Shown here one piece after another: positions 5,913 through 53,233 of a stretch of DNA of 64,000 bases. The notes beneath the pieces are model-generated. The model had not been told where the DNA came from. It worked only from the letters and a program-made list of their open reading frames with translations, and searched no databases. Made by a program: the position numbers and the translations under genes. This stretch comes from Natrialba magadii ATCC 43099. Lineage in GTDB: Archaea > Halobacteriota > Halobacteria > Halobacteriales > Natrialbaceae. The stretch is taken from contig NC_013922.1 of assembly GCF_000025625.1 (NCBI RefSeq), positions 2,914,001-2,978,000 of the forward strand. The letters are read 5' to 3'. How positions within the stretch are numbered: position 1 is the first letter of the stretch; each line of letters begins with the position of its first letter.

Positions 5913-6707
5913 TTACGAGAGTGGTTCTGGCGACGGTGGGACCTGCCGCTTGTGCTCGCTATGTTGGTACATCTCGCGAACACGTTCGACGGTTTCTGGT
6001 TCGACATCGAGTTCGCGACAGGTCGCGGCGACCGAGAGTGGGCCGTCGACGTGTGTGACGAGGATCGAGTCGAGTGTTTCGTAGCTGAGTCCCATCTCGT
6101 CCTCGTCGGTCTGGTCGGCCCACAGCTCCGCGGTCGCGGGCTTGGCTGCGAGGTCCTCGGGGACGCCGACGTGGCGGGCAAGCTGGCGAACCTGTGCCTT
6201 GTAGAGATTTCCGATCGGATGGCAGTCGACCGCGCCGTCACCGTACTTCGTGAAGTAGCCGACGGCGGCCTCGCTGCGGTTGCCCGTTCCCAGCACGAGT
6301 CGGTTCTCGTGGTTTGCGACGAGGTAGTTGAGAACCGCCCGAACGCGGGCGCGAGCGTTGCCGACGGCCTCGCGGTCGCCCTCGGCTTCCGGATACGCCG
6401 ACAGCAACGAGTCGACGATCGGTTCGATTTCGATGAGATCGTGCGGGAGTCCGAGGTCCAGGGCGACCCGCTCGGCGTCACTCATGTTCTCGTCGCCGCT
6501 GACGACAGCGGGGAGGACGAGGCCGTGTACGTTCTCGGCACCGAGTGCATCTGCTGCGAGGTAGGCCGTAAGCGTGCTGTCGATCCCACCCGAGAGACCG
6601 AGGACCGCGCCGTCGGCGCCCGCCGTATCGATCTGGTCTCGGATGAACGTGGTAATATGGTGTTGGTGCTGGTCGAGTTCGGCCTCCGAAAATCGTGGAT
6701 CGATCAT
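5913..6707 (-). CDS. nadE: NAD(+) synthetase
   Basis: A 264-residue ammonia-dependent NAD synthetase converting deamido-NAD to NAD with ATP. The P-loop-like pyrophosphatase motif is GLSGGIDSTLT near residue 40. LGTGNRSEAAVGYFTKYGD and HPIGNLYKAQVRQLARHVGV are hallmark segments, followed by the KPATAELWADQTDEDEMG substrate loop. No glutaminase domain is present, so it is the short archaeal form. ATG at 6707 is preferred; a TTG two codons upstream is in frame. Confidence 0.92.
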   Translation of the reverse strand: MIDPRFSEAELDQHQHHITTFIRDQIDTAGADGAVLGLSGGIDSTLTAYLAADALGAENVHGLVLPAVVSGDENMSDAERVALDLGLPHDLIEIEPIVDSLLSAYPEAEGDREAVGNARARVRAVLNYLVANHENRLVLGTGNRSEAAVGYFTKYGDGAVDCHPIGNLYKAQVRQLARHVGVPEDLAAKPATAELWADQTDEDEMGLSYETLDSILVTHVDGPLSVAATCRELDVEPETVERVREMYQHSEHKRQVPPSPEPLS

Positions 6708-6855
6708 GGGCAACTATACGCTGCCAGGCATCTAATATGCTGCCCACGCGGGCAATTGTTGGACGGGCGGTCACTCATCGCCCGATCTGGTAGCCAAAAA
6801 CACCCAGAGATGGGAGTACAGCAGTGATTTTAACGACTGACAGAGCGAATTGCGA

Positions 6856-8883
6856 TCACAGGTACCCGAACAGCGTCCCGACGAGTACCAGCACCCACGT
6901 GCCGGCACCGACGAGAAGCATGTCGTTGAATCGGCTCTCGCGTGTCGCCCGGTGTGCAGCGCCACCGGCGATCAGTCCGAGTGCGACGACGACGAGCATG
7001 CGCTGGACGACTACGTCGAGCGGCAACACGTCGACGCCAAGCAGGCTGTAATCGAGCCAGATTGCCACTGCCAGCGAGGCCGATGCTGCAAGTGCAGCGT
7101 CAAGACGGCGTTCGAGACCGCTCGCGATCACGTACGTTGCAATCGGCAGACCGAGTGCGATGAGCGGGTAGAGCGTCGCTGCGATCATATGGACGGTCAT
7201 GAACGAGAGCGTCCGGTCGAAGGCAATGCCAAGAATCCTGACGCCGAGAACGATCGTGAGGATCGTACCCGCGAGGATGAGGTGTCGTGCCTCGACGCGG
7301 TCTATGGCTGCAGCGAGTCGTTGTCGGCCGCTCTCGCTGAGTCTGTCAGTGAGTTCGGCGCTGGTCCGTTCTGCGATTCCCTGTGGTGGCAACCGTTCGT
7401 CGGACGACCGCTCTGCTGGGTCGATCGACGAGAGTTGGAGCCAGCCACGCCCACCGTGATCGATACGATTATCGCGGCTGTCACACCCACCCCAACCACG
7501 ACCGCCACGACTGCCACACCCACCCCAACCACGACCGCCAAACCGCAAACCGGCTCGGCGATGCAAAAGCATCCCGAGAAGCAACGGCACAACGAGTGCG
7601 GGAGAGAACGTCAGATCGACCTTGGTCGCCCAGCCATCAGCATCCGACGGGCCGCTGTTGTCGAGGTAAATCCGCTGGAGGTCCTCCTGCTGGTCGACAC
7701 CCGGAATCGCCATCAGATCCTGTTCGAGACGCGACTGTGCACCCTCGACGCCGTCGACGCGATGTCGCAAAGTGAACCAGTCGAAGTGCTCCGAGTGCGT
7801 CTGCATGACGACCCACTGGTCGTCAGGATTCGGCGTCTCGTAGAGTCGGATGTGGTAGCGGTAGCCGTAGTACTCACCATCCTCGAGTTGCAGCGTTTCG
7901 GTCGTCCAGTACGCCGACTCGTCCGGCCCCGGATCGAGGTAGGCAAACCGGGTCGCTCCATCGGCCTGCGACCACGGGATATCCGTCGGCGAGACAGGGC
8001 GAATCACGTGCTCGTGGCCGGCCCCGGATTCGTTGCTGGGCTCGGTCTCGGTCGGCTCCGTTCCCTCGGTGCGCTCGACGCCAGTCGCACTGTCGCCGCT
8101 GTCGTCTGTCTCACCCGCATCGTTTCCGTCGGCTGTCTCGGTTTCGTCTGTTGACTCGGCTTCGTCCGTTGACTCGGTTTGTGCAGTTGTCTCGGTTTCG
8201 TCCGTTGTACTCGAGTACGAGGCGGAGTCTGTCTCAATGTGTGATTCTGGGTCTGGTGTGGACTCGGGTTCTGATTGTGTGCTTGGTTCCGTGTCGGATT
8301 CCATACCCGATTCCGTGCGCAGTTCTGTCTGCAGTTCTGCATCTTCGCCTGTGTCCACAGTCGACCCCGTTTCGGAATTTGGCAGTTGATTTGGTTCTGA
8401 CTCGGTCTGAGTCACGGTCTCGGCCTCGGCCTCGGTTTCGGTCTCGGCCTGAGTCTCCGCTTCCGACACTGACTCAGTCGTCGCTGCCTCTTCAGAAGAT
8501 TCCGCTGGTGAGTCTTGGTCAGTGTGATCGTCCTCGGATGTCTCGTTTTGGGCAAATCCAACGAGTTCGTCCGCATCGAAGTGGTCGTGGTCCGTTTCTT
8601 CCCAGTCACCGGTGCCATAGGTGGTCAGCAACTGAACGATTGTATCCGTTTCACCGCGAACGATGACGTTGAGCGGACTGCGCTGTTCGTGGCTCTGTTG
8701 AGCGTTGAGGTACGGCCAGAAGCCGCTGTCACTGTCCTCGAACGAAATGATCTCGGGTGTGGGTTCGTCCTCAGTCTCGGGGGCCACGTCACTCGTCGAC
8801 GGCGAGAATAAGAGCGACGGACCACCGATAAGCACGATGGTAGCTGCCAACAGAATACCTCCGATCACGATCGAGCGACGCAT
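6856..8883 (-). CDS. haloarchaeal membrane protein with acidic Thr/Glu-rich linker
   Basis: A 675-residue protein. An N-terminal hydrophobic helix (IVIGGILLAATIVLIGG, about residues 5-21) acts as signal anchor. A first globular part (about 45-115) is followed by some 180 residues of Glu/Thr/Ser low complexity (TETEAEAETVTQTESEPN style). A second conserved globular block includes DQWVVMQTHSEHFDWFTLRH and IYLDNSGPSDADGW. The C-terminal third has about six hydrophobic segments, for example LILAGTILTIVLGVRILG and IAATLYPLIALGLPIATYV. I know similar halophile-only membrane proteins but no function. Next to it is a small amphi-Trp gene in the same orientation. Confidence 0.6.
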   Translation of the reverse strand: MRRSIVIGGILLAATIVLIGGPSLLFSPSTSDVAPETEDEPTPEIISFEDSDSGFWPYLNAQQSHEQRSPLNVIVRGETDTIVQLLTTYGTGDWEETDHDHFDADELVGFAQNETSEDDHTDQDSPAESSEEAATTESVSEAETQAETETEAEAETVTQTESEPNQLPNSETGSTVDTGEDAELQTELRTESGMESDTEPSTQSEPESTPDPESHIETDSASYSSTTDETETTAQTESTDEAESTDETETADGNDAGETDDSGDSATGVERTEGTEPTETEPSNESGAGHEHVIRPVSPTDIPWSQADGATRFAYLDPGPDESAYWTTETLQLEDGEYYGYRYHIRLYETPNPDDQWVVMQTHSEHFDWFTLRHRVDGVEGAQSRLEQDLMAIPGVDQQEDLQRIYLDNSGPSDADGWATKVDLTFSPALVVPLLLGMLLHRRAGLRFGGRGWGGCGSRGGRGWGGCDSRDNRIDHGGRGWLQLSSIDPAERSSDERLPPQGIAERTSAELTDRLSESGRQRLAAAIDRVEARHLILAGTILTIVLGVRILGIAFDRTLSFMTVHMIAATLYPLIALGLPIATYVIASGLERRLDAALAASASLAVAIWLDYSLLGVDVLPLDVVVQRMLVVVALGLIAGGAAHRATRESRFNDMLLVGAGTWVLVLVGTLFGYL

Positions 8884-42071: not shown

Positions 42072-43292
42072 CTATCGCTGGCGGTCGAACAACTCGGCCG
42101 GATCGACGCGGGTGTTTTCGGAGTTTTCGATCAACAAATCGCCGAGCGCCTGCTTGAGTTCGGACCGTCGCGGTAGTGCGAGCATCTGGCAGGTGAACAC
42201 CTGGTCGCTGTTGGTCTGGATGTTCGAGTCGAGCATGAACGCGTGATCGTCGGTTTCGGCCATCTTGGCCGTGATCGGCGTCATGATCGACGAACCGGTG
42301 TCGGCGACGAACTGCGGCGGCTCGTGTTTGATCTCGGCGTTCAACACGTTCGCCCAGCCGTCGACGAAGCCGCTGGTCATGATGTTGCCGAGTTCCTTCA
42401 GCGCGCCCTGTTCGACGGAGCCCCACTGCTCGTCAGTTTCCATCGGAACCAGCGAGTCGACGACCGCCCGGCCGGAGGGCTGGTCGAACAGGATGACCAG
42501 ATTCCCGCTGAACTTGCCGTCGAACGGCATGACGGTCCCCACGTATCGCTTATTGCCGACCTCCGTCGGAATATCTTCGATCGGAACGAGCGTCAGACGG
42601 CTGATCTCGACCGTCGTGTCGATGCCGGTCATCGACGTGATGTTCGTCGCGGCCTTCTCTGCACCCTCCTTGGTCATGTCGTTGAAGACCTTGAGTTTCT
42701 CCACCGAGACGATGTCCTCGGTTCGCGGCTCGAAGGCGCGCTCGAGTGAACTCGAGTCGGGGACGAGCAGGATTCGGAAGTCGATCGGTTCGTTGACGCC
42801 TTCCTCGGCGGCTTCGACACGGCTCCGGAAGACGAACAGGTAGTTATCTTCGGTCGTTGCAGACTTTGGCAGCACGTCGGTTCCGGTGCCCTGGATGTAC
42901 GTCGGCGGCGAACTCTTGATCTTCGCGTTCAGGTAGTTCGCCCAGCCGTCGACGAAGCCGCTTGACATGATGTTGCCGACCTCCTCGATGCTGCTTTTTT
43001 TCTTTGCTGGATCGTCGGCCGGGACGAGTTTGTCCGTGATCGCTTTTCGGCCCTGTTCGTCGAACGCGAGGACGACTTCGCCCGAAATCTCACCAGTGAG
43101 ATCGATATTGACGCCGGCGAACTCGTTGCCGATGAACTCGTACTGGAGGTCCGAGGAGGACATGAGCGAGACGTTCGTCACCTGCACGCTCGTGCTGATG
43201 CCCGTCAGTTGGGAGAGCGATTCAGCAGCCGATTGTGCGCCGTCGTGAGCGAGCTCCTGGTAGGTTTCGAGCTCGCGAATATCGATTTCCAT
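42072..43292 (-). CDS. cheC: tandem CheC domain protein
   Basis: A 406-residue protein made of two CheC-like domains of about 200 residues. The first has the phosphatase motif SxxxExxN in SIEEVGNIMSSGFVDGWANY with the proline 22 residues after Asn. The second has KELGNIMTSGFVDGWANV, also with the spaced proline, but Gly at the Ser/Asp position. The other motif site of each domain is degenerate (YQELAHDGAQSAAES and KVFNDMTKEGAEKAA). CheC dephosphorylates CheY-P or binds CheD. It is downstream of cheY by 6 bp in one operon. Confidence 0.85.
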   Translation of the reverse strand: MEIDIRELETYQELAHDGAQSAAESLSQLTGISTSVQVTNVSLMSSSDLQYEFIGNEFAGVNIDLTGEISGEVVLAFDEQGRKAITDKLVPADDPAKKKSSIEEVGNIMSSGFVDGWANYLNAKIKSSPPTYIQGTGTDVLPKSATTEDNYLFVFRSRVEAAEEGVNEPIDFRILLVPDSSSLERAFEPRTEDIVSVEKLKVFNDMTKEGAEKAATNITSMTGIDTTVEISRLTLVPIEDIPTEVGNKRYVGTVMPFDGKFSGNLVILFDQPSGRAVVDSLVPMETDEQWGSVEQGALKELGNIMTSGFVDGWANVLNAEIKHEPPQFVADTGSSIMTPITAKMAETDDHAFMLDSNIQTNSDQVFTCQMLALPRRSELKQALGDLLIENSENTRVDPAELFDRQR

Positions 43293-43298
43293 GGAGAG

Positions 43299-43655
43299 TT
43301 ACCCGGCCGCGATGCTGTTGAGTTCCTCGAGGACGCTTTCCTTCTGGAACGGTTTCGTGATGTAGCCCTCGGCACCGGCTTTGATCGAGTCTTTCATCTG
43401 CTCTGCCTGCTCGACGCTGGTGCACATGACGACCTTCGCGTTCGGATCCATATCCGTAATCTCGTCGGTCGCCTCGATGCCGTCTTTGATCGGCATCACG
43501 ATGTCCATGAAGACGATATCCGGCTGTTCTTCCTGATAGAGTTCGACGGCCTCGACCCCGTTTTCGGCCTCACCGACGATGGTGTGGTCTTCTTCCAAAA
43601 TTTCACGGAGAAGATCCCGCATGAAGCCGGAGTCGTCCGTGATCAGCACATCCAT
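43299..43655 (-). CDS. cheY: chemotaxis response regulator CheY
   Basis: A 118-residue single receiver domain. Acidic pair Asp7-Asp8, phospho-acceptor Asp51 (DIVFMDIVMPIKDG), Thr79 (VVMCTSVE) and Lys101 (GYITKPFQ) are all in place. Phosphorylated by CheA, it signals through CheF to the archaellum motor. It leads the cheY-cheC operon. Confidence 0.93.
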   Translation of the reverse strand: MDVLITDDSGFMRDLLREILEEDHTIVGEAENGVEAVELYQEEQPDIVFMDIVMPIKDGIEATDEITDMDPNAKVVMCTSVEQAEQMKDSIKAGAEGYITKPFQKESVLEELNSIAAG

Positions 43656-44138
43656 GAACGAGTCAATACACGCAGATTACTTAATAATATTGACCAAGAT
43701 GGTGACACTCGACCGACTGTAATCCGCTGACAGCGTGGTGGTCGAGTATGCGGACGGGACGGACGATGAGGGACGAGTACGTAACGCTGGCCAATTACAG
43801 CGACACGAGGTCGTTTACGCCCCAAAACCAGGTTCAGCGTGTCTGTACTCGTCCTGGTTGACTGCACCCGAAGCGAGAATCGGCCATAAGCTTTACAACC
43901 GTATGGCCATAAATCGGTTTCAAATCTGATAATACGGTGTACCCGGTCGTTAGTACATCGGCGGGGGCGAGAAAACAAACGCTCCAGTCGTCTACGCGGC
44001 AGGTTTGGTCAATAGCGGGAACGCAGTACTCGTACAGACAGCACTCACTCGGCCGTAGACACAGTCTGTGTTCTCACACGCGCACACGCGCACTCGTCGA
44101 CTACTACTACTCGCCCAGTAGCGACAGCACACATCGAC
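43656..44138. other. 483-bp spacer between cheY and cheR
   Basis: No gene is supported. It contains the cheY promoter at its left edge, a 7-bp inverted repeat AACCAGG/CCTGGTT around 43828-43859, and two GGCCATAA direct repeats near 43882-43915 in an AT-richer patch. Confidence 0.4.
43676..43691 (-). promoter_or_regulatory. TATA-box for cheY-cheC
   Basis: On the minus strand AATATTATTAAGTAA lies about 22-35 nt upstream of the cheY ATG, predicting a leaderless or near-leaderless transcript. Confidence 0.5.
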
Positions 44139-44948
44139 TCACACCCGCTGGTAAATTCGGTGCCGGTTATCCGTCGCCTCGAACGTCGACTTCAACGACG
44201 GCGGAATCGTCTCACTCTTGCCGATCACCAGATACCCATCCTCCTCGAGCGACTGAGCAATCGTCTCGAGCATCGACCGCTTGTACTCCGTATCGATGTA
44301 GATGAACAGGTTGCGACAGGTGACCAGATTGAACCCCGACTTCGACGCCCCGCTGATCAGGTCGTGGCGCTCGAACGTCACCGGCCGCTTGACCCGGTCG
44401 CGCACGCGATAGACGCCCTCCTCTCGGTCGTGGTCGACGTACTGCTCGTAGTTCGAGAGGTACTCGAGTTCCCCGCCGAGATCGGTGGTTCGTGACTCCT
44501 CGTAGACACCGTCGCGGGCGACGTCGAGGGCGTCCTCGCTGATGTCTGTGGCGCGAATTTCGACGGCGGATTCGTCGATCTGGGGGTCGGCGTGGACGAG
44601 CATCGACAGCGAGTAGGGTTCACGGCCGTCGGCGCAGGCGGCGCTCCAGATCGAGACCTGCCGTTCGCGCGCGGAGAGGGTACGGAGGACATCGCGGATG
44701 CCGTCCCAGACTTCGGGGTTGCGAAAGAAGCCGGTGACGTTGATGCTCATCGAGTCGAGGAGGGCTGCTTGCTCGTCCGGGTCAGTCCGCAACTGGTCGA
44801 AGTACTCGCTGTAGTCGTCACACTTCGTCCGGCGGAGGCGAGCCGTGACTCGTCGGTCGAGGTAGCTATCGTTGTAGTGGCTGGTCGAGAATCCCAGTTC
44901 GGTTTCCATGTAATCGAGGAGAGCGCGGAACGAGTCATCGGCGGGCAC
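44139..44948 (-). CDS. cheR: chemotaxis protein methyltransferase CheR
   Basis: A 269-residue SAM-dependent methyltransferase that methylates glutamates of the transducers. N-terminal helical domain (SFRALLDYMETELGFSTSHY), then SINVTGFFRNPEVWDGIRD, the SAM motif IWSAACADGREPYSLSMLV and FNLVTCRNLFIYIDTEYK. The canonical glycine at the second position of the SAM motif (AGCSTGEE in bacteria) reads ACADGREP here. Start codon is GTG. Separate from the main che operon. Confidence 0.9.
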   Translation of the reverse strand: MPADDSFRALLDYMETELGFSTSHYNDSYLDRRVTARLRRTKCDDYSEYFDQLRTDPDEQAALLDSMSINVTGFFRNPEVWDGIRDVLRTLSARERQVSIWSAACADGREPYSLSMLVHADPQIDESAVEIRATDISEDALDVARDGVYEESRTTDLGGELEYLSNYEQYVDHDREEGVYRVRDRVKRPVTFERHDLISGASKSGFNLVTCRNLFIYIDTEYKRSMLETIAQSLEEDGYLVIGKSETIPPSLKSTFEATDNRHRIYQRV

Positions 44949-45332: not shown

Positions 45333-46076
45333 ATGATCGCGAGCGAAACGATCCTCACGGGATCCGGACTGGCACTGCTCGTCGGTGCCGGCGGCTTCGC
45401 ACTCGGAGCGCGAGCGCTCCCCGCAGCGACGCGCCGATTCGGCTACGCGGTCGTTCTCGCCTGTGCGGGTATGGGGGTTGCGTACCTGCTCATGGCGGCC
45501 GGCGTCCTCACCGTTACGACCTCCGGCCGCGAAGAGTCTGCCGTCCGGTTCCTCGGCTACTCGGTCGCAATGACCGTCGGTAGCGTCGTCATCGGTGCAC
45601 TCGCCGGCGCGAGTACCCGGCGAACAGGTGCACTCGTCGGTGGGAACCTGCTGGCAGTCTGGGGAACGCTCGGAAGCTGGGTGTTCAGCGGAACCGGTGA
45701 AACCGTCGCCACAGTCCTCATCCTGGTGTCGTTTCTCGGCGTCGCCGTACTCCTCCTCGGACCGATGGCACGCACTGCCAGGACGGTCCACGCCGAACGC
45801 ACGCTCCTCTACGGCAAACTCAGAAACCTGGTGTTGCTCGCCTGGGCCAGCCTGATCGTCCTCGGCGCGATTTCGGCGCAGACGCTCGGCCTCACCGACG
45901 CCTTCGTCGGCCAGCTCGCCGCGACCTACGTCGACCTCGTCTTCCTGTTTGGCTTCGGCTTGCTCCTCTTTCGGAACGCCGACGCACTCGAGTACATCGG
46001 GACCGCTGGGGACGCCGACACTGGGTCGCAGTCAGGCGATGAGCCGTACGCGAGCACGGGTGTGAGCGGCAGGTGA
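45333..46076 (+). CDS. SRII-like opsin lacking the retinal-binding lysine, copy 1
   Basis: A 247-residue seven-helix protein collinear without gaps, by my reading, with Natronomonas sensory rhodopsin II. Helix B is AVVLACAGMGVAYLLMAAGV, helix F LRNLVLLAWASLIVLGAIS, helix G AATYVDLVFLFGFGLLLF. Using SRII numbering, Arg72, Trp171, Tyr199 and Asp201 are kept. Lys205 is Leu, the counterion Asp75 is Gly, Trp76 is Tyr, Tyr174 is Leu and Thr204 is Phe. The only lysine lies at residue 162 near the cytoplasmic end of helix F. Retinal cannot be bound covalently. Next gene is an HtrII-like transducer, 179 bp on. Confidence 0.85.
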   Translation: MIASETILTGSGLALLVGAGGFALGARALPAATRRFGYAVVLACAGMGVAYLLMAAGVLTVTTSGREESAVRFLGYSVAMTVGSVVIGALAGASTRRTGALVGGNLLAVWGTLGSWVFSGTGETVATVLILVSFLGVAVLLLGPMARTARTVHAERTLLYGKLRNLVLLAWASLIVLGAISAQTLGLTDAFVGQLAATYVDLVFLFGFGLLLFRNADALEYIGTAGDADTGSQSGDEPYASTGVSGR

Positions 46077-46255
46077 GCGGTGGTCCACGACGGGGGTCGA
46101 CGCACCGTCGTGCATGCCCGACCCACATGAAGCGAGCTATCGCGGCGGCAATAACGGTTATCAGGTGGCAGTGAGACGTCTATCCCAGGATGGGAGCCAG
46201 CAGTCCGTCCTGTCGGACGGGCTCGCTCCGAAGATGCATGAGGGAAGATCACGGG

Positions 46256-47899
46256 ATGCAATTCGATTCACTACTACCAGCACGGATTCGCCAACAGTAC
46301 AGTGTCAAGATCGCCGGTGCGCTCGGTTTCGTCGCCGTCGTGACGATCGGGTTCGGTGTCCTGTTCGGACTCCATATCGTCAGCGGTCCGACCGAGGGAC
46401 TGCAAGAACGTGCCATCGCCGGACTGACCGGACTGCTCGTGATTTTCTCGGTCAATCTCGGGCTCGTCGGGATCGTCCTCGGCGGCAACGTCGCGCTCTC
46501 GCTGCGCCAGCTTGGCGAGCGAACCGAGCGGATCGGGGACGGCGAGTTCGACGTCGACCTCGAAACCGATCGAGTCGACGAGATCGGCCAACTCTACAAC
46601 TCTGTCGACACGATGCGCGACTCGCTCGAGACGACACTCGAGGAGGTCGAGGCCGAGCAGGAACGTGCGGAGACGGCACAGGCGGAGGCCGAAGAGCAAG
46701 CCGCCCAGCTCGAAGAAGAACGCGAGCGGATTCAGGACCTCCAGCATCAGGCCGAACAGCAGAACCAGGAACTCGTCGCGGAAGCCCAGCGCTTCTCTGA
46801 CGTGATGGACGAGTGTGCGGCCGGTGACCTCAGCCAGCGTCTGGCTCCGCAGACGGACGACGAAGCGATGCAGGCGATTGCAGACTCGTTCAACCGGATG
46901 CTCGATCGGATTGGCGACGTCGTCGCCGAAGTGCAGGACGCGAGCGAGACAGTCGACGAGATGTCCGGCGACCTGCAGGGTTCGAGCCAGCAGATTCGTG
47001 CCGCCAGTCAGGAAGTCGCCGAGTCAGTCCAGGAGATCGCAGACGGCGCGACGAGCCAGACCGAGGACCTCGAACTCGCCGCCAGCGAGGTCAGCGACCT
47101 CTCTGCAGCCACGGAGGAAGTTGCAGCGACCACCTCCGAGATCGCGACCCAGTCCGAGGGGATGGCGACGCTGGCCGACGACGGCCAGGACGCCGCCGCC
47201 GACGCCGCACAGAACATCGACCAGCTCGTCGAGACGACTGAAACCGTCGTCGAAACGGTCGAGGAACTCAACGAGGAGGCCGCCCAGATCGGCGAAGTGA
47301 TCTCCCTCATCGACGACATCGCCGATCAGACGAACCTGCTCGCGCTCAACGCGAACGTCGAAGCCGCCCGCGCCGACGAGAGCGGTGACGGGTTCGCAGT
47401 CGTCGCGAACGAGATCAAATCGCTCGCCGAGGAAACCATGGACGCCGTCGACGAAATCGAAGGGACACTCGAGTCCATCCGTGATCGGACGGGGACGACC
47501 GCAGAGGAGATCACGATGGTCGACTCGAACATCAAGACGACGGCAACGCGCGTCGACGAGTTGCAGTCCCAACTCGAGACGATCAGTTCCGAGGCGGACC
47601 AGATGGACGCGAGTATTCAGGAGATTACGCAGACGGCGGACGACCAGGCCAGTTCGGCACAGGAGCTTGCGACGATCGTCGACGACGTGACGAGCGTGTC
47701 GGCGGAGACGAGCAGTCAGGCCGAGCAGGTCGCAGCAGCCTCCGAGGAGACGACGGCGACGACGGAGAGCGTCTCGACGATGGCGGGCGACCTGGACGAG
47801 CAGGCACAGCGGTTGAACGGGTTGATGGAGACGTTCACGATCGATCGCCGAGCCCAGTCTGCTGGGGCGGCCGCTGTCGCGCGAACGGGAGACGACTAA
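46256..47899 (+). CDS. HtrII-like methyl-accepting transducer
   Basis: A 547-residue chemoreceptor with two membrane helices ([40 protein letters not shown]) joined by a short loop and no outer ligand domain, the layout of Natronomonas HtrII. Asn67 in [14 protein letters not shown] matches HtrII Asn74, which bonds SRII Tyr199. HAMP repeats follow ([39 protein letters not shown]). The signalling tip is [20 protein letters not shown]. Start at 46256 aligns with the HtrII N-terminus; in-frame ATG at 46190 is possible. Flanked on both sides by lysine-less opsins. Confidence 0.88.
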
Positions 47900-47986
47900 C
47901 CCGTCTCGTCGCTTCCTGACCAGTACCGAAGTCGACCAGACCAGCACACCAACCACCAACACACCAACATCAGAACCATATCTACG

Positions 47987-48733
47987 ATGATCGAACACAC
48001 CACGACGTTTGTATTGACGAGCACGATTCTTGCAGTGATGACAGCGGTCTTCCTGCTGTGGACTCGGCGACTCGAGGACGGATCGCGGCGGCTCGGCTAC
48101 GCGGTCGTCGCCGCCTGTGGAGCGATGAGCGTCGCGTACCTGCTCATGGCTGCGGGCGTGCTGTCCGTGTCGACGACCGGGCGAGACGAGTCCATCGCGC
48201 GGTTCCTCGGCTACTCGGTCGCCTGGGGCGCAGTCTGTTACGTGATCGGGATGATCGCCGACGCAGAACGGCGGTATACACTCCTCCTGCTCGGCGGGAT
48301 CCTGCTAAGTCTCTGGGCGACCGTAGGAAGCTGGATACTCGGCGGGGCAGCGGGTACCGTCCTCACACTCGCGATCGTGGCCGGAGTCAGTGTGATGGGG
48401 GGCGTTCTATACGGCCCACTCGCACGCGAGGCACAGACCGTGAGCAGCGAGCGAACGCTGCTGTACGGGCGACTCAAGAATCTGACTATGCTCGTCTTCG
48501 TCGGCCTCCTCACAACCGGGATGCTCTCCGCACAGAATCTCGGGTTTACCGACGCCTTCATCGGACAGGCCCTCGCGACCTACCTTGATTTCGTCTGGCT
48601 TGCAGGCTTTGGCGGACTGGTACTCCGGAGTAGAGCTGCGCTGTCGGATGCTGGCAACGAGCGCGACGCCACGGAAGCGACGGGATCGAACGCTGAACGC
48701 GTTGCCGTCGGGACGGCACAGTCTGCCGACTGA
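47987..48733 (+). CDS. SRII-like opsin lacking the retinal-binding lysine, copy 2
   Basis: A 248-residue paralogue of the opsin-like protein at 45333, identical to it in many segments (VAYLLMAAGV, RFLGYSVA, ERTLLYG). Arg72, Tyr199 and Asp201 are retained in SRII numbering. Lys205 is Leu (TYLDFVWLAGFGGLVL), Asp75 is Gly, Trp171 is Phe, Tyr174 is Leu, Thr204 is Trp. The only lysine is at position 164. It begins 87 bp after the transducer stop on the same strand, so one opsin-transducer-opsin operon is likely. Confidence 0.85.
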   Translation: MIEHTTTFVLTSTILAVMTAVFLLWTRRLEDGSRRLGYAVVAACGAMSVAYLLMAAGVLSVSTTGRDESIARFLGYSVAWGAVCYVIGMIADAERRYTLLLLGGILLSLWATVGSWILGGAAGTVLTLAIVAGVSVMGGVLYGPLAREAQTVSSERTLLYGRLKNLTMLVFVGLLTTGMLSAQNLGFTDAFIGQALATYLDFVWLAGFGGLVLRSRAALSDAGNERDATEATGSNAERVAVGTAQSAD

Positions 48734-48943: not shown

Positions 48944-50524
48944 CTACGTCGATACCGTCTCGTCCGCGAGTCGGCCGACCTCGGACTCGATTTCGTCCAC
49001 CAGCTCGTCGACCTGCTCGTTCTGACCGACGATCGCCTCGATTTCGGTTGCGACCTCGTGTGACTGTTCCATCGCGGTGTCGGTCATGCTCGCGACCTCT
49101 TCGGTGCTTGCCGCCTGGTCGTCAGTCGCCATCGCGACCTCCTGAATACCAGTACTCGCCTCCTGGACGGATTCCTCGATGCGCTCTAAGTTGTCGACCG
49201 TCTCCTCAACCAGCCCGACGCCGCTTTCGATCTCCTCGTTTGCCGTCTCGAGACTATCAACCGTCTCCTCGGTATCCGCCTGGATCTGGTCGATCATCCG
49301 TTCGATGTTCTTGGCTTCGTCCTGCGATTCTTCGGCCAGGGACTTGACCTCGTTTGCGACGACCGCGAACCCGTCTCCTGCTTCGCCCGCCGTCGCCGCC
49401 TCGATCGACGCATTGAGCGCGAGCAGATTCGTCTGGTCGGCGATATCGTTGATCACATCCACGATTTCGTCGATCTTCTGGACGCTCTCGCGCAAGTCCT
49501 CGACGTCGTCGGTCACCTCGTCCGCCGCATCGTCGACGACCGCCATCTTGTCGATCGCTTCCTCGGCCGTCTCCGTCGTGTCGTTCGCGATTTCCTCCGC
49601 GCGCTCGCTGGTTGCGCTGACCTCCTCGGCGTTCGAGGCAATCTCCTCGACCGTCGCCGATAGTCCCGCTACTTCGCCCGAAATCTCGCCCATCGCGTCG
49701 GACTGTTGGGCCGCCAGGTCGCTGATCTCGTCGGAACGGTCGGAGACCTCTACCGAACGCTCGCGGAGCTCGGTGACTGACGACTGGACGTTCTTCGAGA
49801 CCTCGGTCCGGTGCTCGAGTTCGTCCTCGATATCGGCGTAGGCGTCGATGTAGGTGTCCATCGCGATCTGCTGGTCGACGTTCAGTAGTTTGAGCGCAGA
49901 GAGCGATCGCTCGACAACGTCGTCGACCATCTCCTGGGCGTCGGAGAGGGGCACGAGCGGCTCATCCTGGGATGGGGCTGTCGACGACTCCGCGGACAGC
50001 TCTGTCTCCGTTTCGGGTGCATCCTCGACAGCCGTACTGGCGAGGTCGTCCATCGCTTCGTCCGCAAGCGCCGTCAGAATCCCCTCGTAGTAGATCGAAT
50101 AGCCGCCGAGATAGAACTTCGGCCCCATGTCCAGCATATCGTGAATCTTGCCGATCCTGGCACGGCGCTCGGCGTACGCCGTCCCGTACTCACCACGACC
50201 GATATCCATGAGATACTCATACTGGGTCCGCTCGAGTGCATCGACGGATTTCGAGGACGAGTTGAGAATCGCAGTGGCGTCGGCGTTCGACTGGAGGTGG
50301 GAGTAGAACTCAGCGACGAGGTCATCCGCAATCTCCTCGAGAAGCGGCGCCATCGACTCGAGTCGATCGGCATCGGTCTCATCGAAGCCGACGAACTCCT
50401 TTCGCCACTCGAGTTCACGGCGATCGAGCCCGATCCGGTCGGTAAGGTCACGTCCGTCGACCTGCCGTCTGTTGTGCTCGTCGATTGTAGCCTGCGCCTG
50501 ACGCTCGTCCTGGTGGGTAGGCAT
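48944..50524 (-). CDS. hemAT: globin-coupled aerotaxis transducer HemAT
   Basis: A 526-residue soluble transducer. The N-terminal globin sensor (about 25-185) has the proximal heme ligand His128 in [20 protein letters not shown] and the B-helix region [16 protein letters not shown]. The C-terminal signalling domain is a long coiled coil with the tip [20 protein letters not shown]. There are no membrane helices. In Halobacterium HemAT mediates aerophobic responses to oxygen. It ends in the conserved motif region without a pentapeptide tether. Its signalling region is nearly identical in DNA to the paralogue at 51572. Confidence 0.9.
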
Positions 50525-51571: not shown

Positions 51572-53233
51572 CTACTCGTCCGCAGAGAGACTGCGAACAT
51601 CGGCTTCAACCTCGTCGACCAGCTCGTCGACGGTCTCGGCGTGGCGTTCGATCGCCTCGAGTCCGTTCGTGACCTGCTGGGACGTCTCCATCGCAGTGTC
51701 GGTCATGCTCGCGACCTCTTCGGTGCTTGCCGCCTGGTCGTCGGTCGCCGTCGCGACCTCCTGAATGCCCGTGCTTGCCTCCTGGACGGATTCCTCGATA
51801 CGCTCTAAGTTGTCGACCGTCTCCTCGACCAGATCGACACCAGTCGAGACGCGCTCGTTCGCCGTCTCGAGGCTGTCGACCGTCTCCTCGGTATCCGCCT
51901 GAATCTGGTCGATCATCCGTTCGATGTTCTTGGCTTCGTCCTGCGATTCTTCGGCCAGGGACTTGACCTCGTTCGCGACGACTGCGAACCCGTCTCCCGC
52001 TTCGCCCGCCGTCGCCGCTTCGATCGAGGCGTTGAGCGCGAGCAGATTCGTCTGGTCGGCGATATCGTTGATCACGTCCACGATCTCGTCGATCTTCTGG
52101 ACGCTCTCGCGGAGGTTTTCGACGTCGTCAGTCACCTCGACGGCTGCCTCCTCGACGCCTTCGATCTGATCGATCGCTTCCTCGGCCGTCTCCGTCGTGT
52201 CGGTCGCGATTTCCTCGGCGCGCTCGCTGGTGGCACTGACCTCCTCGGCGTTCGAGGCAATCTCCTCAACCGTCGCCGACAGCCCCGAGACCTCACTCGC
52301 AATTTCGTTCATCGAGTTCGACTGCTCGGCCGCGAGATCCGTCATCTCCGCGGTCCGATCGGTCACGTCGGCAGTCGAATCCGAAACCTCACGCAGCGAC
52401 TCCTGAATCCGATCACCGACGGCCTCGCGCTGGCGCTTCGTCTCTACCTGATTCGTGAGTTGCGCTTCGTACTCGGCGATGCGCTCTTCATCTGCTGCCT
52501 GCTGGCTGCGCTGTGCACTGGCGTAGGTCTGCATCGCGAGTTGCTGGTCGACCAGACTGTGGCGCAGCAGCGACAGCGTCCGGGAAACGACGGTGTCGAC
52601 TGCGTCGTCGACGGCTTCTCCAATGGCACCGGACTCGCCAGCAGTCTCAGCGTCAGGCGTCCCAGCATCACCCCCTCCTCCTCCTCCTCCTTCTCCCTCT
52701 CTCTTCCCCTCAAACCCCGCTTTGACGTCCGCCGCAATCGCCTCGAGTGCCTCCTCGTAGTACGCGCCGAACGACCCGATATAGGCGTCAGGCCCTGCTG
52801 CAAGGACCGCCCCAACGGCCGGCGACTCGAGTCGATCCGAGAAAACCGCCACGTCGGTCCGGCCCGCCGCTGCCGCGTCGACGAGGCCGGCCTGGTCCGA
52901 TTCGAGTTGGGCTTTGCTCGCGCCCGACTGCGTCTCGAGTGCACTCGAGACAGCCGGCTTGCGGCTGGCGGCGTCGGCGGACGCTGCGGCGATGTCCGCA
53001 CGGGCGTCTGCGAGGGCGTCCGAGAGCGACTCGAGTCGGGCCTCGTCGTCGGCGTCCAGTGAGACGAAGGTGTTCGCGCGCTCGACGCTGGCGGGGTCGA
53101 TGCCAGTGTTCATGATGGCGTCGACGTCCGCACTCGAGACCGAGGCCGAGGCCGAGCTCAAAGCCGTCCCACCGGAATCAGTGGAATCGGCTGCGGCTTC
53201 GAGACGGGACGCTCCGCCGTCTGTTCTGGGCAT
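51572..53233 (-). CDS. HemAT paralogue with histidine-free globin domain
   Basis: A 553-residue soluble transducer. Residues 48-170 align with the HemAT globin ([39 protein letters not shown]) but the proximal heme histidine is Gly141 and there is no histidine before residue 225. The domain is Ala-rich. A Gly run ([13 protein letters not shown]) links it to the helical part. The signalling tip [20 protein letters not shown] and surroundings equal those of HemAT. A non-heme globin sensor, as in Bacillus RsbR, is the natural reading. Ligand unknown. Confidence 0.82.

Follow-up and report, generated by a model that had tools for sequence, protein, structure and literature searches.

What do two relatives of a light receptor do on either side of one taxis transducer when both have lost the lysine that holds retinal? 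This question is raised by a stretch of 64,000 nucleotides of Natrialba magadii ATCC 43099 (the window), in which two genes for opsin-related proteins (ORPs), here ORP1 and ORP2, enclose a gene for a transducer of the type of HtrII, the partner of sensory rhodopsin II (SRII); the plus-strand order is ORP1, transducer, ORP2. A first-pass annotation, made from the letters of the DNA, had described the two products as selected, SRII-like opsins that might bind retinal non-covalently, bind another ligand, sense the state of the membrane or modulate the transducer without light. ORP1 and ORP2 are indeed real lysine-less relatives of SRII, and they are group B opsin-related proteins, most likely descendants of SRII that no longer carry retinal. 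We consider it probable that they form a retinal-free receptor pair which feeds a non-light stimulus into CheA through the one HtrII-type transducer. That such proteins exist is already known, for N. magadii (Siddaramappa 2012, PMC3403918) and for the class (Becker 2016, PMC4915679).

Two SRII relatives without the retinal lysine

Both reading frames are open over the coordinates given in Table 1, and both products score above the Pfam Bac_rhodopsin cut-off of 24.6 bits (ORP1, 43.3; ORP2, 30.3). The best solved relative of ORP1 by sequence is the SRII of Natronomonas pharaonis (2e-11). Structure prediction, which the first-pass annotation had proposed as a check, bore the assignment out: the AlphaFold models of the two proteins (predicted local distance difference test scores of 91.5 and 90.3) have the seven-helix fold of type 1 opsins, and the best structural matches of both are SRII crystals (3qap/5jje), at a template modelling score of ~0.9 by target length and 2.0–2.4 Å.

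In SRII numbering, used throughout, both proteins carry R72, G75, Y76, L174, D189, Y199, D201, F/W204 and L205 in register with SRII; ORP1 reads W171, L174, G178, D189, Y199, D201, F204 and L205, and ORP2 the same save for F171 and W204. A profile–profile alignment of 41 ORPs with seven lysine-bearing SRIIs sets the ORP residues opposite Thr204-Lys205 and agrees in register through helix G, and thus two independent alignments place a hydrophobic residue, Leu, at the Schiff-base position of both proteins, with no lysine at the true site. Each protein has just one lysine, at 162 or 164, where helix F ends on the cytoplasmic side, and the cores of the membrane helices hold none. The other marks of an SRII photoreceptor are missing as well: the counterion Asp75 is Gly, and the Tyr174-Thr204 pair is replaced by Leu with Phe in ORP1 and by Leu with Trp in ORP2, while Arg72, Tyr199 and Asp201 are retained. 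All of this agrees with the first-pass annotation, which had also called the alignment to SRII gapless up to helix G; here the register and every residue named were right, and one alignment program opens a small gap in helix B that is compensated, with identical numbering on either side. The changes that define group B, W178 to Gly, Y174 to Leu and F127 to Thr/Ser with Y51, R72, Y199 and D189 conserved, are present in ORP1 and ORP2 alike.

In the tree, a single split with ultrafast bootstrap of at least 93 separates every sampled lysine-less sequence from the lysine-bearing ones, and both proteins belong to the lysine-less haloarchaeal clade that adjoins the sensory opsins, as group B proteins do. 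ORP1 and ORP2 form sister clades with several genera in each; the duplication is therefore old, and a recent tandem duplication was rejected.

Both proteins are under purifying selection. Against the nearest relatives, the ratio of nonsynonymous to synonymous substitution rates (dN/dS) was 0.13–0.20 for ORP1 and 0.18–0.20 for ORP2, and in most comparisons it was 0.18–0.29 for ORP2 and 0.13–0.29 for the ORPs together. At larger distances, which are partly saturated, it reached ~0.3 for ORP2 and 0.4–0.6 for ORP1, and in very close ORP2 pairs with few changes (loci L071, L073 and L075) it was 0.32–0.76. The flanking transducer and che genes evolve more slowly, with dN/dS mostly 0.02–0.2. The ORP frames are intact across genera and residues not concerned with retinal are invariant. 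A lysine at the true site, frameshifts and a dN/dS near 1 had been named beforehand as observations that would speak against functional proteins, and none of them was found. What the first-pass annotation had concluded on this point, that these are selected and apparently functional SRII relatives with the signalling core kept, therefore stands, and its functional options can be narrowed.

One transducer between two opsins

The best solved match of the transducer is NpHtrII (9e-30; 6e-31 for the N-terminal part), and the protein has the make-up of the HtrII type: two transmembrane helices (TM1 and TM2) with opsin-contact residues, a HAMP domain and an MCP domain. Its outer loop of ~14 residues forms no outer domain. 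We prefer the start at 46256 (MQFDSLL) over that at 46190 because homology begins at the former. In the genome analysed (4,443,643 bases in four contigs, of which C1 has 3,751,858) it is the only transducer that matches across both TM1 and TM2; in five others the match starts no earlier than about TM2 or HAMP. The genome holds three ORPs and one HtrII-type transducer.

The 2012 account describes Nmag_1701, 2879 and 2881 as distant homologs of rhodopsin that lack the lysine, leaves retinal binding open, and lists transducer genes beside both ORPs (2880 and 2882), pairing Nmag_2881 with 2882 (PMC3403918). By gene order, Nmag 2882 appears to be a protoglobin HemAT on the strand opposite ORP2. This protein matches 1or4, with its His aligned to H123, and is not an opsin transducer; since it is the gene that follows ORP2, the two ORPs have one HtrII-type transducer between them, which corrects the 2012 account.

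The contacts between SRII and HtrII, which we take to be Tyr199-Asn74 and Thr189-Glu43/Ser62, have fared differently. The residues of the first are kept, Tyr199 being invariant in the ORPs and the Asn74 equivalent retained in the transducers of ORP1/ORP2 loci. At the second, canonical SRII pairs combine T/S189 with E/D43 in 8/8 cases, whereas short-loop ORP pairs combine D/T189 with H/Y43 in 30/30, triad transducers being counted twice; at the ORP1/ORP2 locus Asp189/His43 replaces Thr189/Glu43. The pattern is suggestive of an acid that moved from the transducer to the opsin, and we treat it as suggestive rather than statistical because it falls on one tree split and the triad transducers enter twice. 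The comparison at position 43 was discarded for the Arg205 group described below, where extra sequence before TM2 makes the alignment unreliable. Y199 and D189 of the ORPs are also discussed in Becker 2016 (PMC4915679).

The usual arrangement is a transducer followed directly by an ORP, often overlapping by a few bases; in the triads ORP1 is an added gene upstream of the transducer. Whether the double lysine-less arrangement recurs had been posed as a check, and it does, in four surveyed genomes: N. magadii, N. hulunbeirensis, Natrialba sp. SSL1 and Natronorubrum halalkaliphilum. A class-wide survey of 391 genomes gave no further ORP pair around one transducer among the matches listed, a list that stops short of the weakest ones. 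Transducer and ORP2 are present in all seven Natrialba genomes and ORP1 in three. In the other four ORP1 is not at the same site, and no remnant found there is convincing: tblastn and blastn returned only weak hits, and a profile search scored 2.1 bits in L075, where shuffled sequence reached at most 0.9, and nothing in the other genomes lacking ORP1. A score of 2.1 bits is too low to support an ORP1 pseudogene in L075. The ORP1 clade also occurs without an adjoining ORP2, at Halobiforma loci.

Locus L082 offers another arrangement of paired lysine-less opsins, with two side-by-side genes of the ORP2 clade (Trp204; 6212-7084 and 7518-8414, minus strand) and no transducer of HtrII type nearby. 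The third lysine-less opsin of N. magadii (G000 C1:1734530-1735171, minus strand; locus L064, ~6354-7346) belongs to a Glu201/Arg108-type clade and is isolated from che genes, near a gene for an MC1 chromosomal protein and one for leucyl-tRNA synthetase; its clade adjoins transducers in other genera, not in Natrialba.

What the pair may sense

On the reading we hold probable, the ORPs would still hold and switch the transducer as SRII does, with opsin helices F and G against TM1 and TM2, and the signal would then pass through HAMP and the MCP domain to CheA, CheY and the archaellum. The helix F/G interface would be shifted not by photoisomerisation but by a stimulus other than light that acts on the outer half of the bundle of seven helices. 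As the transducer itself has next to no outer domain, sensing most likely takes place in the opsins. The two paralogs, with different pocket types, would share the one transducer and probably compete for its dimer or combine on it.

The pocket has changed at one end. The volume of the residues at its ring end is down by ~270-290 cubic Å through W178G, F127S/T and Y174L, and that at the Schiff-base end is about the same or higher. Among 23 sequences of the ORP1 and ORP2 clades, E68 and Q183 are found in all 23 and Q194 in 22, G178 is fixed, and T188/D189 accompany them; NpSRII has Val, Trp, Pro and Val at 68, 178, 183 and 194. By homology to SRII, positions 68, 183, 188/189 and 194 are predicted at the outer end of the bundle. 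Other ORP clades carry different residues at 68, 183 and 194, as expected if the clades see different stimuli. The outer half as a group is not strikingly more conserved than the inner half (entropy 1.09 versus 1.27), and the case therefore rests on a few polar residues. An outward-facing pocket in ORPs was modelled independently in Becker 2016 (PMC4915679).

Retinal synthesis was surveyed in 125 genomes of the family, counted per genome with no correction for relatedness. Brp, the beta-carotene cleaving enzyme, is present in 63 of 72 genomes with a canonical opsin and in 0 of 53 without, and in 23 of 51 genomes with an ORP against 40 of 74 without (p=0.37): canonical opsins track Brp, and ORPs do not. 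Neither a canonical opsin nor Brp is present in 26 of the 51 ORP genomes, and setting aside five with an RPE65-like enzyme leaves 21. Canonical opsin, Brp and RPE65-type enzyme were all searched for in the six other Natrialba genomes and none was detected; all six keep transducer and ORP2. Brp was not found in the N. magadii genome either.

N. magadii itself has a lysine-bearing halorhodopsin-like gene (L138:5940-6824; C1, ~2654 kb) and, on the third contig, a smaller replicon, a gene for an RPE65-type carotenoid oxygenase (C3:125544-126917). The oxygenase is the likely source of retinal in this organism, and with both genes present retinal may exist in the cell. It may be the carotenase Nmag_4083 named in PMC3403918.

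An outer-face solute or ion is the stimulus that we favour over membrane state, pure modulation and a non-covalent chromophore. The first of these would have the ORPs sense proton-motive force, pH, Na+ or lipid through the R72-D201-Y51 core and the outer acids; we think it unlikely, since the polar set varies by ORP subgroup, a pattern more in keeping with different ligands than with a single general property of the membrane, and since N. chahannaoensis, an alkaliphile, has no ORP1. In its favour are the retention of the SRII R72/D201 pair and Y51 together with the new outer acids E68 and D189, a transducer without a ligand domain, and the fact that two of the four organisms with a triad are, going by a published title or their name, alkaliphiles (N. 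magadii, PMC3403918; Natronorubrum halalkaliphilum).

Improbable, to a further degree, is that ORP1 modulates the ORP2-transducer complex, or is its structural partner, and is no receptor for a stimulus of its own. There is precedent in SRM-HtrM, which attenuates the signalling of other sensory rhodopsins (PMC6450946), and both the uneven occurrence of the two genes in Natrialba and the place of ORP1 as an addition to the usual transducer-then-opsin order suit such a role. ORP1, however, has fixed pocket and interface residues of its own, is under purifying selection, and its clade occurs where no ORP2 adjoins.

Xanthorhodopsin-type proteins admit a carotenoid at the ring-end region of the pocket, the region that Trp178Gly and Phe127Ser/Thr open in the ORPs. 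Coupled with the possible presence of retinal in N. magadii, this gives some ground for ORPs that are still photoreceptors, with retinal or a carotenoid bound non-covalently in an altered pocket, the first of the functions suggested in the first-pass annotation. We regard it as very unlikely: the counterion D75 is Gly, the ring-end residues are lost, six other Natrialba genomes without detected canonical opsin, Brp or RPE65-type enzyme keep transducer and ORP2, and the N. magadii ORP examined in PMC4915679 formed no pigment and showed no absorption at 480-580 nm with retinal. The Brp/RPE65 survey weakened it as a leading explanation. That the ORP genes are decaying remnants of phototaxis, as loss of the defining lysine and evolution faster than that of the transducer and che genes might suggest, is scarcely credible and was rejected on the intact frames, invariant residues and low dN/dS.

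Several points weigh against a retinal-free receptor pair. Transducer binding, an outer-face ligand or ion site, transducer sharing and taxis output are what we infer from the observed sequence, fold, loss of lysine and ring pocket, selection, gene linkage and independence from retinal synthesis across genomes; what is said of the pocket and the outer face draws on SRII homology and residue volumes. ORP1 is absent from four of the seven Natrialba genomes and is therefore dispensable. The change at 43/189 falls on a single division between clades and may have arisen once, not by repeated covariation, and the genome-level statistics count genomes regardless of phylogeny. Many ORPs elsewhere, and the third ORP of N. 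magadii, do not stand beside a transducer. In PMC4915679, native ORP protein was undetected by mass spectrometry, the genes being transcribed.

A bolder form of the receptor-pair reading, possible and in our view doubtful, is a cofactor-free chemosensor in which ORP1 and ORP2, with their different pockets, assemble together on one transducer and signal chemical cues at the outer face, singly or as a ratio. If true, a prokaryotic type 1 opsin would work like a ligand-activated seven-helix receptor, and both cofactor-based sensor types of the cluster, opsin and HemAT, would have cofactor-free versions. Type 1 opsins count as proteins of light reception, and a large, retinal-free, selected branch on chemotaxis transducers would show the fold retooled as a chemical or physical sensor, in parallel to animal opsins and the other G protein-coupled receptors; such retooling has already been published as an idea. 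The altered transducer contact, the outer polar set and the natural experiment in Natrialba, where ORPs are kept and no retinal enzymes were detected, give concrete residues and strains to test.

Setting of the locus and comparison with known systems

The window contains the main archaellum/chemotaxis cluster of N. magadii (Table 1). Its arl part comprises arlCE-type proteins and arlJ, arlH and arlI homologs; before ORP1 lie cheF, a two-domain cheC/cheX, cheY and cheR, and past ORP2 two HemAT-type transducers, two cheW, cheB, cheA and cheD. The position of ORP and transducer within this cluster is kept across Natrialba.

Table 1. Features at and around the triad (positions in the window).
Feature	Coordinates	Strand	Evidence
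ORP1 (247 aa, ORP1 clade)	45333..46076	+	Pfam PF01036 43.3 bits; SRII fold; dN/dS; tree
HtrII-type transducer: TM1, ~14-residue outer loop, TM2, HAMP, MCP signalling domain	46256..47899	+	NpHtrII match, MCPsignal, HAMP
ORP2 (248 aa, ORP2 clade)	47987..48733	+	Pfam PF01036 30.3 bits; SRII fold; dN/dS; tree
Conserved left flank overall	42072..44948	-	Pfam; gene order same in Natrialba relatives
cheC/cheX two-domain gene	42072-43292	-	Pfam
cheY	43299-43655	-	Pfam
cheR	44139-44948	-	Pfam
HemAT-type soluble transducer with protoglobin sensor, conserved right flank	48944..50524	-	Protoglobin 2e-28, MCPsignal

Beside the HemAT-type gene at 48944-50524, a second one (51572-53233, minus strand) has a protoglobin domain that is barely recognisable (E 7e-4, below the cut-off). 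The haem histidine H123 (B. subtilis HemAT numbering) is absent from 6/6 orthologs of this second protein, and its neighbour retains the equivalent histidine in 8/8 loci. If the second protein is a cofactor-free globin sensor, it would adjoin cofactor-free opsins in one cluster.

With N. pharaonis SRII-HtrII the ORP locus shares fold, register, the neighbourhood of transducer and opsin, and the Tyr199/Asn74 contact residues, and its transducer has the same TM1-TM2-HAMP-MCP plan with a small outer loop. It differs in the absence of Lys205, Asp75 and the Tyr174-Thr204 pair, in the emptied retinal-ring pocket, and in Asp189/His43 where the known system has Thr189/Glu43.

The Arg205 opsins of other Natrialbaceae (loci L110-L112, L114, L116, L117, L120-L123 and L134-L137) form a separate clade in the tree. 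Like the ORPs described here they are SRII-derived, lack the lysine, have Gly178 and adjoin an HtrII-type transducer; unlike them they keep Asp75 (or Glu), Tyr174 and Thr204 (Ala in one) and have Arg at 205, and their transducers are longer (~760-890 aa), with extra sequence before TM2. Becker's group A, which has Asp76 and Arg205 (here L128/L129), is different, and the opsins of these loci may make up a group of their own.

From the published group B there is no difference in kind. Becker 2016 names the class "ORPs", defines group B by Leu at the Schiff-base position, and describes the same Leu205, W178 to Gly, Y174 to Leu, polar 127 and retained Y51/R72/Y199/D189 (PMC4915679). HAMP/MCP transducers and a che/arl cluster adjoin the genes there too, in the same organism, and by genome identity and gene order ORP1 and ORP2 are the published proteins. 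Nine ORPs, three from N. magadii, were assayed for transcription and eight of the nine were transcribed; WP_004267173, which may be ORP1, ORP2 or the third N. magadii ORP, was the protein purified for the retinal assay, and a role in non-light taxis was proposed (PMC4915679). The text of PMC4915679 and PMC3403918, as far as consulted, does not treat the triad of one transducer and two ORPs, the E43 to H/Y change in the transducer or the E68/Q183/Q194 set. To these accounts the present analysis adds one transducer for three ORPs, the triad in four genomes, the contact residues, the outer polar set and the Brp survey.

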